DNA of 64,000 bases from Methylobacterium sp. E-065. Its GTDB lineage: Bacteria > Pseudomonadota > Alphaproteobacteria > Rhizobiales > Beijerinckiaceae. Within the stretch, counting starts at the first letter, position 1. Each line of letters starts with the position of its first letter. The stretch is from positions 1 to 64,000 of the forward strand of contig NZ_JAKSYD010000112.1 of the NCBI RefSeq assembly GCF_022829605.1. Reading direction: 5' to 3'. The notes under the pieces were generated by a model. That model was not told where the DNA came from. It did not search any database and saw nothing but the letters and a program-made list of their open reading frames with translations. The translations under genes and the position numbers were made by a program. Below, piece after piece: positions 56,194 to 61,261 of this stretch.

Positions 56194-56526
56194 TTGATCA
56201 CCCCCGCCTTCGCGCAAGGGGCCGCTACGGCCGCTGGCGGAGCGGAGATCGCCTTTCAGGTGATCCCGTTCGTCTTGATCTTCGTGATCATGTATTTCCT
56301 GATCCTGCGACCGCAGCAGAAGCGGGTCAAGGACCACCAGACCCTGCTGAAATCCGTGCGCCGGGACGACACGGTCGTCACCAATGGCGGCCTCATCGGT
56401 CGCGTGACCAAGGCGTCGGACGACCAGCCCGAGATCGAGGTGGAGATCGCCCCGAACGTCCGCGTGCGGGTCGTCCGGTTGATGATCTCCGAGGTCCGCG
56501 CCAAGGGCACCGTGAAGGCCGCCTGA
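56194..56526 (+). CDS. yajC: Preprotein translocase subunit YajC
   Basis: YajC is a small membrane protein associated with SecDF. A TTG start at 56194, preceded by CAGGAGACGCTCG, gives 110 residues beginning MITPAFAQGAATAAGGAEIA. One membrane helix (FQVIPFVLIFVIMYFLILRP) is followed by the conserved QQKRVKDHQTLLKSVRRDDT and VVTNGGLIGRVTKASDD. It heads the yajC-secD-secF run; secD starts 57 bases later. Confidence 0.93.
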   Translation: MITPAFAQGAATAAGGAEIAFQVIPFVLIFVIMYFLILRPQQKRVKDHQTLLKSVRRDDTVVTNGGLIGRVTKASDDQPEIEVEIAPNVRVRVVRLMISEVRAKGTVKAA

Positions 56527-56583: not shown

Positions 56584-58188
56584 ATGCTGCGCTTCTCCCG
56601 TGCGAAGATCATCGCGACGCTGGGCCTGATCCTGGTGGGGCTGATGCTCGCCGTGCCGAGCTTCTTCTCCCCCGAGCAGCGCAAGGGCTTCGTCGCCAGC
56701 CTGCCGCCGTGGTTCCCCGCCTGGATCGTGCCGACACGCGCCATCGTGCTCGGCCTCGACCTGCAGGGCGGCTCGCAACTGCTGCTTGAGGTCGATCAGA
56801 ACGAGCTGATCGCCTCCCAGGCCAAGGCCCTGCGCGACGACGTGCGCCGGGTGCTTCAGCAGGAGAACGTCCGCGCCGATGGCGGCATCGGCCTGCTTCA
56901 GCGCGGCGTGCAGGTTAAGATCGCGGATGACGCGGCTCGAGCCAAGGCGCTGCCGAAGCTGCAGGAATTATCGCTGCCGATCACCACGTCGATCGGCCAG
57001 ACCGCCGCCCGTACCCTCGACGTCACCGAGCAGCCCGGCGGCCTGATCCGCCTGACGCTGACCGATGCGGGCATCACCGATCGCACCCGGCGGGCCGTCA
57101 GCCAGGGCATCGAGGTCATCCGGCGCCGCCTGGATTCCACCGGCACCACCGAGCCGTCGATTCAGCAGCAGGGCGCCGACCGGATCCTGATCCAGGTGCC
57201 GGGCGAACAAAATCCGGAGCGCCTGGAAAAACTCCTCGGCTCCACCGCCAAGCTTGAATTTCGCATGCTCGCCGACAGCCCGTCCGGCGACGTCGACATG
57301 TTGCCCTCCAAGGACGAGAAGGGCGCCAAGGTCCCGGTCGAGCGCCGGGTGATGGCCGATGGCGGCGAGCTGACCGACGCGCAGCCGTCCTTCGACCAGC
57401 AGTCCCACGAGCCGATGGTGAGCTTCAAGTTCAACCTGCGCGGGGCGCAACGCTTCGGTCAGGCGACCTCGGAGAATGTCGGCCGGCGCATGGCGATCGT
57501 GCTCGACAACGAGGTGGTGTCGGCCCCCGTGATCCGTTCGGCGATCACCGGCGGCTCGGGCCAGATCACCGGCAACTTCACGGTCCAGCAGGCCAACGAC
57601 CTGTCGGTTCTGCTCCGGGCCGGCGCGCTGCCGGCGAAGTTCACCGTGGTCGAGCGCCGCGTCGTCGGCCCCGGCCTTGGCCGCGACTCCATCCAGGCCG
57701 GCAAGCTCGCGACCCTGGTGGCGGCAGCCCTCGTGGTCGCCTTCATGTTCGCGACCTACGGCACCTTCGGCTTCATCGCCAACATCGCCCTCATGGTCCA
57801 TGTGGGGCTGATCCTGGGCCTGATGTCGGTGCTTGAAGCTACTATGACCCTGCCCGGCATCGCCGGCATCGTGCTCACCATCGGTACCGCGGTGGACTCC
57901 AACGTGCTGATCTACGAGCGCATGCGCGAGGAGCAGAGGGCCGGCCGTTCGCTCATCTCGGCACTCCAGGCCGGATTCGACCGGGCCTTCGCCACCATCA
58001 TCGACTCGAACTCGACTATGGCGATCGCCGCCCTGATCCTGTTCTTTCTCGGCTCGGGCCCGGTGAAGGGGTTTGCGGTCGTCTTCATCCTCGGCATCCT
58101 GACCACGGTCATCACGGCGGTGACGCTGACCCGGATGATGATTGCGGTGTGGTACAAGACCTTCCGACCGAAGGCCCTGCCGTTCTGA
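56584..58188 (+). CDS. secD: Protein translocase subunit SecD
   Basis: SecD with SecF uses the proton gradient to help complete protein export through SecYEG. The 534-residue protein has an N-terminal helix, GLDLQGGSQLLLEVD (family D/EGG motif), a large periplasmic P1 domain with QGIEVIRRRLDSTGTTEPSI and QQQGADRILIQVPG, and five C-terminal helices with VGLILGLMSVLEATMTLPGI and GTAVDSNVLIYERMREEQRA, then NSTMAIAALILFFLGSGPVK. Normal length. Followed by a repeat and secF. Confidence 0.96.
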   Translation: MLRFSRAKIIATLGLILVGLMLAVPSFFSPEQRKGFVASLPPWFPAWIVPTRAIVLGLDLQGGSQLLLEVDQNELIASQAKALRDDVRRVLQQENVRADGGIGLLQRGVQVKIADDAARAKALPKLQELSLPITTSIGQTAARTLDVTEQPGGLIRLTLTDAGITDRTRRAVSQGIEVIRRRLDSTGTTEPSIQQQGADRILIQVPGEQNPERLEKLLGSTAKLEFRMLADSPSGDVDMLPSKDEKGAKVPVERRVMADGGELTDAQPSFDQQSHEPMVSFKFNLRGAQRFGQATSENVGRRMAIVLDNEVVSAPVIRSAITGGSGQITGNFTVQQANDLSVLLRAGALPAKFTVVERRVVGPGLGRDSIQAGKLATLVAAALVVAFMFATYGTFGFIANIALMVHVGLILGLMSVLEATMTLPGIAGIVLTIGTAVDSNVLIYERMREEQRAGRSLISALQAGFDRAFATIIDSNSTMAIAALILFFLGSGPVKGFAVVFILGILTTVITAVTLTRMMIAVWYKTFRPKALPF

Positions 58189-58234: not shown

Positions 58235-58328
58235 GCCTCTCCCGTGCGGGAGAGGGTTGGGGCGAGGGATCAGGTCTCTTCGGAGAGGTCGCACCCCTCA
58301 CCCTGCCCCTCTCCCTCACGGGAGAAGA
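58235..58328. repeat. Inverted repeat element between secD and secF
   Basis: CCTCTCCCGTGCGGGAGAGG near 58236-58255 is itself a hairpin; GCCCCTCTCCCTCACGGGAG near 58306-58325 is its inverted partner, and GGGGCGAGGG pairs with CCCTCACCCTG-like sequence. This is the type of widespread intergenic palindrome that recurs in proteobacterial genomes. It extends the secD-secF gap to 191 bases. Confidence 0.65.
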
Positions 58329-58379
58329 GACCCGCGCCCCGGCTTCCTGCGTCGCGGCTCCTGTAGAAGAGACACGACC

Positions 58380-59321
58380 ATGCGCCTGCTCCGCCTCTGG
58401 CCCGATGAATCGCATTTCGATTTCATGCGATTCCGGCGCTTCACCTTCCCGCTCTCGGCGCTGCTCTCGCTCGCCACGGTGGCGCTGTTCCTGACGATCG
58501 GGCTGAATTTCGGCATCGACTTCAAGGGCGGCACCCTGGTGGAGCTGCAGGCGAAGTCCGGCACGGCCGATGTCGCAGGGATCCGGCATACGGCCGTCGG
58601 CTTCGGCTTCGGTGAGCCGGAGGTGCAGGAACTCGGCAACCAGGGCACCGTGCTGGTCCGCCTGCCGCTCCAGCCCGGCGAGCAGGGTCAGACCGCGGTG
58701 ATGAACAAGGCGCACGCCGCCTTCGACAAGGATTACGACTTCCGCCGCACCGAGACCGTCGGCCCGCGCGTCTCCGGCGAGCTGGTCCAATCCGGAACGC
58801 TCGGCGTCGTGCTCTCCGTCGTGGCGGTGCTGCTCTACCTCTGGTTCCGGTTCGAGCGGGAACTGGCGCTCGGCGCCATCGTGGGCACGCTCCACGACAT
58901 CGTGCTGACGGTCGGCGTGTTCATCATCACCCGCATCGAGTTCAACATGACCTCGATCGCGGCGATCCTCACCATCGTGGGCTACTCGCTGAACGAAACG
59001 GTCGTGGTGTTCGATCGGACCCGCGAGCTGATGCGCCGGTACAAGACCATCCCCACCGTCGACCTGCTCAACCTGTCGATCAACTCGACCATGTCGCGCA
59101 CGGTGATGACCTCGATCTCGTCCGGCCTGTCGCTGCTGGCGCTCGTGCTGTTCGGCGGTGAGGCGATCAAGGGCTTCGCCACCGTGATGCTCTGCGGCGT
59201 TCTGATCTGCACCTACTCGGCGATCTTCATCTCGACTCCGGTGTTGATCTATCTGGGGCTGATGCTCTCGGGGGCCCGCGCGGCGTCGGAGCGCTCCGGC
59301 GTCCCGCAACCGGCGGAGTAG
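58380..59321 (+). CDS. secF: Protein translocase subunit SecF
   Basis: The partner of SecD, 313 residues. ATG 58380 starts MRLLRLWPDESHFDFMRFRR, typical of alphaproteobacterial SecF; AGAAGAGACACGACC lies before it. Markers are the GIDFKGGTLVELQAKSGTAD region and the six-helix core with ITRIEFNMTSIAAILTIVGY, SLNETVVVFDRTRELMRRYK and LNLSINSTMSRTVMTSISSG. The open frame runs back to secD through a repeat element, which is not coding. It is followed 13 bases later by the Mth938-like gene. Confidence 0.96.
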   Translation: MRLLRLWPDESHFDFMRFRRFTFPLSALLSLATVALFLTIGLNFGIDFKGGTLVELQAKSGTADVAGIRHTAVGFGFGEPEVQELGNQGTVLVRLPLQPGEQGQTAVMNKAHAAFDKDYDFRRTETVGPRVSGELVQSGTLGVVLSVVAVLLYLWFRFERELALGAIVGTLHDIVLTVGVFIITRIEFNMTSIAAILTIVGYSLNETVVVFDRTRELMRRYKTIPTVDLLNLSINSTMSRTVMTSISSGLSLLALVLFGGEAIKGFATVMLCGVLICTYSAIFISTPVLIYLGLMLSGARAASERSGVPQPAE

Positions 59322-59334
59322 TTCGTTTTCCGCG

Positions 59335-59733
59335 ATGGCCGATCAGGCAAATCCGAAGACCTTCGACTCCGGCTTCGTGCCGGGGCGCCACATCATCGAC
59401 ACCTACGGCAATGGCGGCTTCCGCTTTGCCGGGATGTCGCATCGCGGCTCGATCCTGATGCTGCCCTCCGGCGTGCGCGCCTGGGACGTGACGGAGCCGC
59501 GGGGCATCGACCGGACGGCGCTGCGCCCGGTCCAGGCCGAGGCGGCGGGGATCGAATTGTTGCTGGTCGGCACCGGCCTCGACATCGCGGCGATCGATCC
59601 GGCCCTGCGCGGCTGGCTCAAGGATTTCGGGGTCGGCCTCGACGTGATGCAGACCGGGGCCGCGGCCCGCACCTACAACATCCTGGTGGCCGAGAACCGC
59701 AAGGTTGCCGCCGCCCTGATCGCGGTGGCCTGA
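59335..59733 (+). CDS. Mth938-like domain protein (NDUFAF3 homologue)
   Basis: A 132-residue protein of the Mth938/DUF498 family, whose human member NDUFAF3 is a complex I assembly factor. Typical sequence: IDTYGNGGFRFAGMSHRGSI, LMLPSGVRAWDVTEPR, then ELLLVGTGLDIAAIDPALRG and GVGLDVMQTGAAARTYNILV. It lies 13 bases after secF and its stop overlaps the start of the squalene-synthase-like gene by one base, so the two are co-translated. Confidence 0.87.
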   Translation: MADQANPKTFDSGFVPGRHIIDTYGNGGFRFAGMSHRGSILMLPSGVRAWDVTEPRGIDRTALRPVQAEAAGIELLLVGTGLDIAAIDPALRGWLKDFGVGLDVMQTGAAARTYNILVAENRKVAAALIAVA

Positions 59734-60611
59734 TGCCGGAGGTGGAGGGCCAGACCGCCGAGACCGGGCTCGCCTTCGCGCAGTCCCATTGCGAGGGCCT
59801 CGTGCGGGATGGTGATCCGGACCGCTACTACGCCACGCTCTTCGCCCCAGCCTCTGCCCGCCCGCACCTCTTCGCCCTCTACGCCTTCTCGCTGACCATC
59901 GCGCGGGTGCGCGAGGCCGTCTCCACCCCGATGGCCGGGGAGATCCGCCTGCAATGGTGGCGCGATGCCCTCCAGGGCGAGGCGCGGGGCGACGTCCGCG
60001 CCAACCCGGTGGCGGCGGCATTGGAAGAGGCGATCCGGGTGAACCGCCTCGGCCGCCAGCCCTTCGTCGACCTGATCGATGCCCGGGTGTTCGACCTCTA
60101 CGAGGATCCGATGCCCCGGGTGAACGACCTGGAGGGCTATTGCGGCGAGACCGCCTCGGCGCTGTTCCGGCTGGCGAGCCTCGTGATCGGCAACGGCATC
60201 GAGCCGGGCGGCGCGGGGGCTGCCGGGCATGCCGGCGTCGCGTACGGCATCACCGGCTTGCTGCGCGCCCTGCCCTGGCACGCCCGATCGGGGCAGGTCT
60301 ACCTGCCGGCCGAGATCCTCGATCGCTACGGCGTCACCCGCGAGGACATCGTCACCGGCCGTGGTGGCCCCGGCCTGCTCCGGGCCTGCGCCGACCTGCG
60401 CGCCCTCGCCCGGCAGCACCTGAAGGCCTTCGAGGCGGCGCGCCTTACCATCGCGCCCTCGGCCGGCGCCGCGTTCCTGCCGGTCGCCTTGGTGGATTTG
60501 TATCTCGCCGCCATGGAGCGGGCCTCCTACGACCCGCTCAACACGCTCGTGGAACTCCCGCGCTGGCGGAGGCTGTGGCGCTTGTGGTGGGCGGCGCGGC
60601 GGATTGGGTGA
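59733..60611 (+). CDS. Squalene/phytoene synthase-like protein (NDUFAF6-like)
   Basis: A 292-residue protein with the trans-isoprenyl diphosphate synthase fold (for example FALYAFSLTIARVREAVSTP, GEIRLQWWRDALQGEARGDV, GQVYLPAEIL). The Asp-rich DxxxD-type metal motifs of true squalene or phytoene synthases are not visible: the first position reads TIARVREAV, and the second has DLEGYCGETASALFRLAS with a single Asp. This matches NDUFAF6-type proteins, which are thought to act in complex I assembly rather than isoprenoid synthesis. It is translationally coupled to the NDUFAF3-like gene. An enzyme role is not excluded. Confidence 0.8.
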   Translation: MPEVEGQTAETGLAFAQSHCEGLVRDGDPDRYYATLFAPASARPHLFALYAFSLTIARVREAVSTPMAGEIRLQWWRDALQGEARGDVRANPVAAALEEAIRVNRLGRQPFVDLIDARVFDLYEDPMPRVNDLEGYCGETASALFRLASLVIGNGIEPGGAGAAGHAGVAYGITGLLRALPWHARSGQVYLPAEILDRYGVTREDIVTGRGGPGLLRACADLRALARQHLKAFEAARLTIAPSAGAAFLPVALVDLYLAAMERASYDPLNTLVELPRWRRLWRLWWAARRIG

Positions 60612-60628: not shown

Positions 60629-60967
60629 TCAGGTCATCGGTACGGCCGTGACGAAATGGGCGTGCCCTTTCGCGTCTATGCGCCAGACCGTTCGGATACG
60701 CGGGGCACGCCCGTCCGGCATGATGATGGCTCCCTCGAAGATCAATTTGACGTCCCCGCGCGTCGAGACCGTCTCGCCGACGAAGGAGGTCTCGGTCGGA
60801 TGATCGAGCAGTGCTGACGAGAGCGAGAGCGGCTCGCCGAGATGGAAGCCGAAGCGCTTGAAGAACCGCGCCTTGGAGCCGCCTTCGATGTGGGATTCGT
60901 CGAGCAGATATCCGTCGATCTTGCGCGGGTCGAGCGACCAGCTCCGCGGCCAGTCCGGACGGCTCAA
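60629..60967 (-). CDS. DUF6883-like small protein
   Basis: A 112-residue protein: SLDPRKIDGYLLDESHIEGG, SKARFFKRFGFHLGEPLSLS, then SFVGETVSTRGDVKLIFEGA and RIRTVWRIDAKGHAHFVTAV. The KARFFKRFGF block and the R-x-R-T-V-W-x-I strand match what I recall of DUF6883. It starts within the stop codon of the DUF4926-like gene (4-base overlap), forming a two-gene unit. Function unknown. It converges with the squalene-synthase-like gene. Confidence 0.65.
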   Translation of the reverse strand: MSRPDWPRSWSLDPRKIDGYLLDESHIEGGSKARFFKRFGFHLGEPLSLSSALLDHPTETSFVGETVSTRGDVKLIFEGAIIMPDGRAPRIRTVWRIDAKGHAHFVTAVPMT

Positions 60968-61215
60968 GCGTTCGCCCGCTTCACGAGGCGGAGGTCTGTC
61001 GCCTCGACGGTAGCGAGCGCGCCGGCCGGCTCCGCGAACTCGACCTCGTAGGCCTCGCCATCACGCCAGATTCCGACGATCGTGCCCTCGGACCCCGCCT
61101 CCATCGTGACGCCGTCATCCGTCATCGCGGCGGCTTTCAAGGCCACCCGATCGAGGTCCCGGAGGTCCGATCGCAGCTCGTTGCGTCTGACGATGTAATG
61201 CGCGTCGACGGTCAT
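60964..61215 (-). CDS. DUF4926-like small protein
   Basis: ATG 61215 gives 83 residues: MTVDAHYIVRRNELRSDLRD, LDRVALKAAAMTDDGVTMEA, GSEGTIVGIWRDGEAYEVEF, ending LRLVKRANA. A GTG at 61257 would add 14 residues. The Leu-Asp-x-Val-Ala-Leu start, Gly-x-Gly-Thr-Ile-Val strand and AYEVEF match DUF4926, a small SH3-like beta-barrel family. It is immediately upstream of, and overlaps, the DUF6883-like gene; the pair has the layout of a toxin-antitoxin or immunity module, but no such activity is shown. Confidence 0.65.
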   Translation of the reverse strand: MTVDAHYIVRRNELRSDLRDLDRVALKAAAMTDDGVTMEAGSEGTIVGIWRDGEAYEVEFAEPAGALATVEATDLRLVKRANA

Positions 61216-61261
61216 GCCGGCAGGATGACCAGTCGGCCGCCGCGGCACAAGAGGCACTCGA

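Follow-up and report, generated by a model that had tools for sequence, protein, structure and literature searches.

The two genes that directly follow secF in the Methylobacterium window (the whole stretch of DNA analyzed here, 64,000 nucleotides) are probably alphaproteobacterial counterparts of the complex I assembly factors NDUFAF3 and NDUFAF6, located in an old yajC-secDF neighbourhood. We refer to them as AF3 and AF6. In the reading that we favour, AF6 would be a non-catalytic protein that aids a membrane-arm subunit of mitochondrial-type complex I, and AF3 would serve the same stage while being losable. Eukaryotic NDUFAF3 and NDUFAF6 are known to act in complex I assembly. Saada et al. 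2009 reportedly used gene conservation to connect NDUFAF3 with the SecF/SecD/YajC cluster and with C8ORF38 (NDUFAF6), so the central linkage claim has most likely been published already. What we add is a count of how widespread the arrangement is, together with a family in which AF3 alone is lost and a suggestive tie of AF6 to complex I with a separate NuoD.

The locus in the Methylobacterium window

The features of the locus are:

56194..56526, + strand: yajC (TIGR00739, 86.7 bits, cut-off 44.2)
56584..58188, + strand: secD (TIGR01129, 452.3 bits, cut-off 244.4)
58238..58325, no strand: imperfect 42-nt inverted repeat in the secD/secF gap, found in the sequence
58380..59321, + strand: secF (TIGR00966, 278.1 bits, cut-off 160)
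59335..59733, + strand: AF3, Mth938/DUF498 gene, homologue of the NDUFAF3 family (132 aa; PF04430, 1.1e-30)
59731..59735, + strand: TGATG stop/start overlap of AF3 and AF6, found in the sequence
59733..60611, + strand: AF6, squalene/phytoene-synthase fold, NDUFAF6-like, without the metal-binding Asp residues (292 aa; PF00494 SQS_PSY, 3.1e-60)

A preliminary description of this DNA had an Mth938-family gene and a squalene-synthase-like gene overlapping by one base right behind secF, and this is what the sequence contains. The A at 59733 is common to the TGA stop of AF3 and the ATG start of AF6, and the last base of secF is 59321, which leaves a gap of 13 bases ahead of AF3. The secF start at 58380 was picked by conservation (the block 58369-58400 is kept in relatives); the longest open reading frame begins at 58149. 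Stretches similar to the inverted repeat occur elsewhere in L204 and L227, so this repeat may be a mobile palindromic element. Two short minus-strand ORFs downstream of AF6 (60629-61257), with matches to DUF6883 and DUF4926, face it.

AF3 matches the PF04430 (DUF498) profile over its full length (positions 1-109 of 109) with 106.2 bits against a cut-off of 33, and its closest solved chains by sequence search are 2fvt (1.3e-33) and 2fi9 (1.7e-29). The AF6 protein is 95% identical over its length to the AF6 of Methylobacterium sp. 2A, among the matches listed. It is one of four SQS_PSY genes in the genome of the window, the others being an adjacent HpnC and HpnD pair, which scores over the curated cut-offs, and a CrtB-like gene below its cut-off.

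Gene neighbourhood across Alphaproteobacteria

The neighbourhood census covered 80 chosen alphaproteobacterial genomes, 45 with NuoD and 35 without. DUF498 was found over cut-off in 28 of them, twice in one (G014). The gene immediately upstream on the same strand is secF in 27 of these 28 genomes; in the exception, G031, yajC takes that place, and the second copy in G014 has no adjoining sec gene. This linkage of secF and DUF498 exceeds chance. AF6 shares the strand of DUF498 and lies less than 7 kb from it in 24 of the 28 genomes, namely the window, G045 (at 6.8 kb) and, by flank, 22 of the 27 others. In G018 it is far off, G035 and G028 carry it on another contig, and in G010, which keeps secD, secF and AF3, a profile search did not find it. 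Four AF6-bearing genomes have no DUF498 (G002, G003, G048 and G328), and G021, whose AF6 the A2 profile recognizes, is a further case; in G002, AF6 directly follows secF. The neighbourhood behind yajC-secD-secF is therefore old and widespread in Alphaproteobacteria.

The close coupling of AF3 and AF6 has a narrower distribution. Among the 24 genomes with the pair within 7 kb, adjacency is confined to the window and to G034, whose two genes are 8 bases apart; the spacing ranges from about 0.66 to 4.2 kb in the other 21 loci examined. Within the best 80 of 586 confirmed named loci, mostly near relatives and mostly Hyphomicrobiales, AF3 stands beside AF6 in 78, SecF is present in 77 and a PF06181-like gene in none. 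Tight adjacency hence looks like a trait of this group. An ancestral unit with YajC-SecDF, as proposed earlier, survives as a widespread neighbourhood; the one-base coupling itself is local.

Other genes intervene elsewhere. In several families a gene of roughly 170-210 codons, partially matching PF06181 (urate oxidase N-terminal), lies between AF3 and AF6, mostly on the opposite strand (L035, L043, L045, L047, L050, L055 and others). All six such intervening proteins tested gave the partial match, and the gene adjoins AF6 in 16 of 30 loci, on the opposite strand in 15. In L042, L044 and L058, HpnC/HpnD-type genes, some below curated cut-offs, occupy the space between DUF498 and AF6, together with ORFs that resemble hpnE and superoxide dismutase by eye; L058 has HpnC and HpnD parts in a single ORF. 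A further SQS_PSY gene stands beside AF6 in L050.

AF3 can also be lost alone. In the family of G021 (f24), which we infer from its complex I types to be Acetobacteraceae, NuoD scored over cut-off in 70 of 80 sampled genomes and DUF498 in one, with one more match below cut-off. A family-specific profile gave AF6 at 127 bits or more in 62 of the 80, the next match being at 73.5 bits. An obligate AF3-AF6 unit, as first envisaged, does not fit these counts.

The position beside sec genes invites an explanation in terms of export and not respiration. AF3 and AF6 could be general accessory factors of SecDF-YajC, concerned with membrane insertion or lipid handling, with complex I as one client among others. 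Their position near sec genes is steadier than their co-occurrence with complex I, in the family of G021 the distance from AF6 to yajC is at most 1.5 kb at 21 of 30 loci, and that family has dispensed with DUF498 while keeping complex I. However, AF6 absence in the same family coincides with loss of the separate-NuoD complex I, the single genome G010 retains the sec genes and AF3 with no AF6 detected, and the role of the eukaryotic relatives is in complex I assembly. We regard this explanation as unlikely, though it is the strongest of the alternatives.

The AF6 protein

The absence of visible Asp-rich catalytic motifs from the squalene-synthase-like protein, noted in the preliminary description, extends to the AF6 family. 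In our alignment, Asp occupies the five metal-binding positions in 0, 0, 4, 1 and 2 of 27 AF6 rows, whereas all 12 catalytic-type paralogue domains have it there; neither the first nor the second Asp of DDxxD is kept in any AF6 row. The second of these is replaced by Arg or Lys in 26 of 27 rows. The family has A (24/27) and E or D (22/27) in the first motif, and A or S (22/27) and H (13/27) in the second. The window protein reads ARVRE in the first motif and ALPWH in the second, with A, R and E at the metal-binding positions of the first site and A and H at those of the second. An alignment that restores both DxxxD motifs was looked for and not found, the window AF6 being without all five Asp residues.

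Published descriptions of NDUFAF6 are in part similar. In PMC12470011, the motifs printed for human and Arabidopsis NDUFAF6 are AxxxD and AxxxH/SxxxH, and those printed for Drosophila depart from this pattern. The AxxxE and AxxxH of the window AF6 are near the human and Arabidopsis motifs printed there, with Glu for Asp. PMC8007014 describes DxxxD motifs as absent from NDUFAF6 orthologues and presents a tree in which prokaryotic proteins join the NDUFAF6 type, apart from squalene and phytoene synthases.

Our synthase tree was built from bacterial sequences only and holds 27 AF6 rows (21 from the A1 set and 6 of the 28 from A2) with 12 paralogue domains. All AF6 rows fall on one side of a branch with support 100/100, apart from HpnC, HpnD and CrtB; a grouping with any of these enzymes was sought and did not appear. 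HpnD is the nearest group (90/76). Long branches are the AF6 stem (1.53) and, above all, the L050 row (3.13). HpnD is also the NCBIfam model on which AF6 scores highest, yet AF6 is under the curated cut-off of every NCBIfam synthase model matched: 128.6 bits for HpnD (cut-off 278.6), 73.6 for HpnC (250.45) and 24.4-42.5 for the CrtB models (480-550). The A1 profile was made from the window and 20 of 22 ORFs (the short L038 and L053 were left out, and the starts of L037 and L052 were trimmed, which leaves the L052 row without a start codon), and the A2 profile from 28 of 30 loci, without L103 and L117.

By its sequence AF6 is not a synthase, and the exchanged residues suggest a loss of catalysis and hence a non-catalytic protein. 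The predicted structure (pLDDT 93) compares well with the CrtM-like chain 8isa in a fold comparison (Z 29.9, rmsd 2.7 A over 271 residues). No NDUFAF6 structure was among the matches listed in the sequence or fold searches, which excludes nothing. The C-terminal helix is rich in Trp and Arg; the last 25 residues, which include the last helix of the model, hold six Lys or Arg and one Asp or Glu. AF6 would probably dock on the membrane through this basic, Trp-rich helix. The relatedness of the pair to complex I factors, suggested at the outset, stands in this form: AF3 belongs to the DUF498 family, and AF6 combines the NDUFAF6 fold with the lost motifs.

The same fold raises another possibility, that AF6 is still an enzyme or a lipid carrier of isoprenoid metabolism, for instance of hopanoids or quinones, with an altered active site and only indirect effects on complex I. 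The fold appears intact in the model and near that of CrtM-like enzymes, and HpnC/HpnD-type genes (L042, L044, L058) or an SQS_PSY gene (L050) can stand beside AF6. Against this, the metal-binding Asp residues are lost, and the genome of the window is already equipped with HpnC, HpnD and a CrtB-like gene. A nematode NDUFAF6-like protein is moreover described in PMC12470011 as having neither squalene nor phytoene synthase activity. We consider an isoprenoid role quite improbable.

Complex I and AF6 across the class

NuoD matches were obtained by profile search in 352 of 387 alphaproteobacterial genomes, 332 of them over cut-off. In the 80 chosen genomes, DUF498 occurs in 27 of 45 with NuoD vs 1 of 35 without; AF6, at 159 bits or more, occurs in 29 of 45 vs 2 of 35 (30 of 45 counting G021, which was recognized by the A2 profile). 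Fisher's p for AF6 against NuoD is 4e-9, which we do not take as support since the genomes that lack complex I are nearly all small, and these genes are mostly missing as well from the small genomes that do have NuoD. Of the 34 genomes with neither NuoD nor NuoH, 32 are at most 1.8 Mb in size, G328 being the one NuoD-less genome with NuoH. Among genomes of up to 2.0 Mb that have NuoD, 12 of 13 are without DUF498 and without a clear AF6; the matches in G015 and G016, at 102 and 112 bits, are unclear. The draft genome G324 has AF3 and AF6, and neither NuoD nor NuoH was found in it.

Across the class, gene absence follows genome reduction, and the test against complex I is confounded. The AF6 profile search of all 387 genomes left no clean gap between AF6 and its paralogues (about 1e-20 to 1e-45), so no AF6 count was drawn from it; G271 and G335, which have NuoD, gave best matches of only about 1e-25 and so speak against a strict link. 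Fused NuoCD was over cut-off in none of the 387 genomes at an E limit of 1e-180, and further independent NuoCD replacements could thus not be counted.

Complex I types in the family of G021

The family of G021 allows a comparison between types of complex I. Ten of its sampled genomes have only a long NuoD, and all ten proteins are NuoC-NuoD fusions (ten checked by Pfam, seven by NCBIfam). AF6 is present in 61 of 65 genomes with a separate-NuoD complex I, in none of 9 with fused NuoCD only and in none of 5 with no complex I (0 of 14 together). It is also present in all five genomes with both types (G407, G423, G439, G450, G460). Fisher's p for AF6 against the separate type is 2e-12, a value that ignores kinship. 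Loci L164-L177 carry fused NuoCD, alone or beside the separate type.

The separate type was recognized from the score of NuoD, its start in the profile and its open frame, with NCBIfam models used in addition for G441, G452 and G423, and NuoH was checked in 51 genomes. The 65 genomes comprise 60 with a full NuoD, three with NuoD fragments only (G388, G401, G403), G407 by its NuoH and G410 by a NuoH fragment. G407 was classed as having both types from two NuoH sets (434.5 and 387.6 bits). G410 was included by judgement, having no true NuoD and, at the beginning of a contig, only part of a NuoH (75.8 bits). G403 was scored as lacking AF6 despite a small AF6-like fragment (44 bits). The draft genome G458, with AF6 and no true NuoD or NuoH, was set aside; including it would turn 0 of 14 into 1 of 15.

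An rpoB tree was computed for 40 of the 80 genomes, hand-chosen to hold all fused-only and both-types genomes and the complete genomes with no complex I, with others as neighbours. On this tree there are two changes of the separate type, one in a 13-genome clade and one in the long-branch genome G420; AF6 is absent in both. There are three further AF6 absences: G441 and G411, which have a separate NuoD with no AF6 detected, and G452. In the last, AF6 appears broken into two pieces with stops (L183, G452:C1:289809-290130), and separate NuoD and NuoH are present. The pair test found two independent pairs (median p 0.5), fewer than the six or more that significance would require. Genome size does not explain the AF6 pattern, since rpoB-tree genomes of up to 2.9 Mb have AF6 in 6 of 6 cases with the separate type vs 0 of 8 without.

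With two independent losses behind it, the tie to complex I is suggestive, and for AF6 only. Co-occurrence with nuo genes, proposed as a check in the preliminary description, is accordingly seen for AF6 and the separate NuoD in this one family, with two losses only, and is confounded at the level of the class. That there is no functional link, the order having been inherited by chance and the losses following genome reduction and the history of one clade, would agree with the small size of most complex I-less genomes, the lack of the genes in most small NuoD genomes and the mere two losses here, but is very unlikely given a gene order kept across many families despite inserted genes and the split among genomes of up to 2.9 Mb.

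On the NuoC/D model the NuoCD of G413 reached 1168.9 bits, far above the 900 to 1016 of six others tested, which suggests more than one NuoCD acquisition. PMC4596401 describes acetic acid bacteria as varying in their nuo operons: Ga. diazotrophicus has two, Go. oxydans has none, and horizontal gain is proposed. A narrow literature search found no paper tying these nuo differences to NDUFAF6.

A possible role in complex I assembly

According to work cited in PMC8007014, human NDUFAF6 is reported to act via ND1 biogenesis. By our favoured explanation, AF6 would be placed at the membrane close to where SecDF-YajC inserts proteins, and there would most likely hold or guide a subunit of the membrane arm, NuoH (ND1) for example, while complex I is assembled. 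By analogy with NDUFAF3, AF3 would probably aid the same early stage, and it may act on the cytoplasmic side. The small genomes that have NuoD without AF3 or AF6 count against this explanation; complex I evidently occurs without these genes. So do G441, G411 and G452, with a separate NuoD and no intact AF6 detected, the drafts G324 and G458, with AF6 and no true NuoD or NuoH found, the near-complete lack of DUF498 in the family of G021, and the deviating Drosophila motifs. In a more specific form, which we hold only tentatively, AF6 would serve specifically the alphaproteobacterial, mitochondrial-type complex I, in which NuoC and NuoD are separate, and would be dropped when this enzyme is exchanged for the fused-NuoCD type or when complex I is lost, with AF3 as an optional partner.

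If this is true, bacteria with both types of complex I would allow the specificity of NDUFAF6 to be tested in one cell. An AF6 gene beside secDF, together with AF6-less relatives that lack one complex I type, makes a simple genetic system for asking whether such proteins serve NuoH/ND1, lipids or insertion in general.

Comparison with known systems

AF3 resembles NDUFAF3 (C3orf60) and other Mth938/DUF498 proteins in its PF04430 domain, which scores over cut-off. Its position beside secF is also shared with what Saada et al. 2009 are said to have described for NDUFAF3. It differs in being bacterial, and in the family of G021, where complex I is mostly kept, 79 of the 80 sampled genomes have no DUF498 match over cut-off.

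AF6 shares with HpnD, HpnC, CrtB and CrtM the fold and the PF00494 family, but differs from them in scoring below curated cut-offs, in having lost the metal-binding Asp residues and in forming a separate clade. Its likeness to NDUFAF6 (C8orf38, Sicily, fungal NDU1), as drawn from the published motifs and text, consists of a head-to-head synthase fold in which both DxxxD motifs are lost, with AxxxE and AxxxH in the window AF6 instead. For fungal NDU1, a basic C-terminal helix is predicted to be a membrane anchor, and the C-terminal helix of AF6 is possibly alike.
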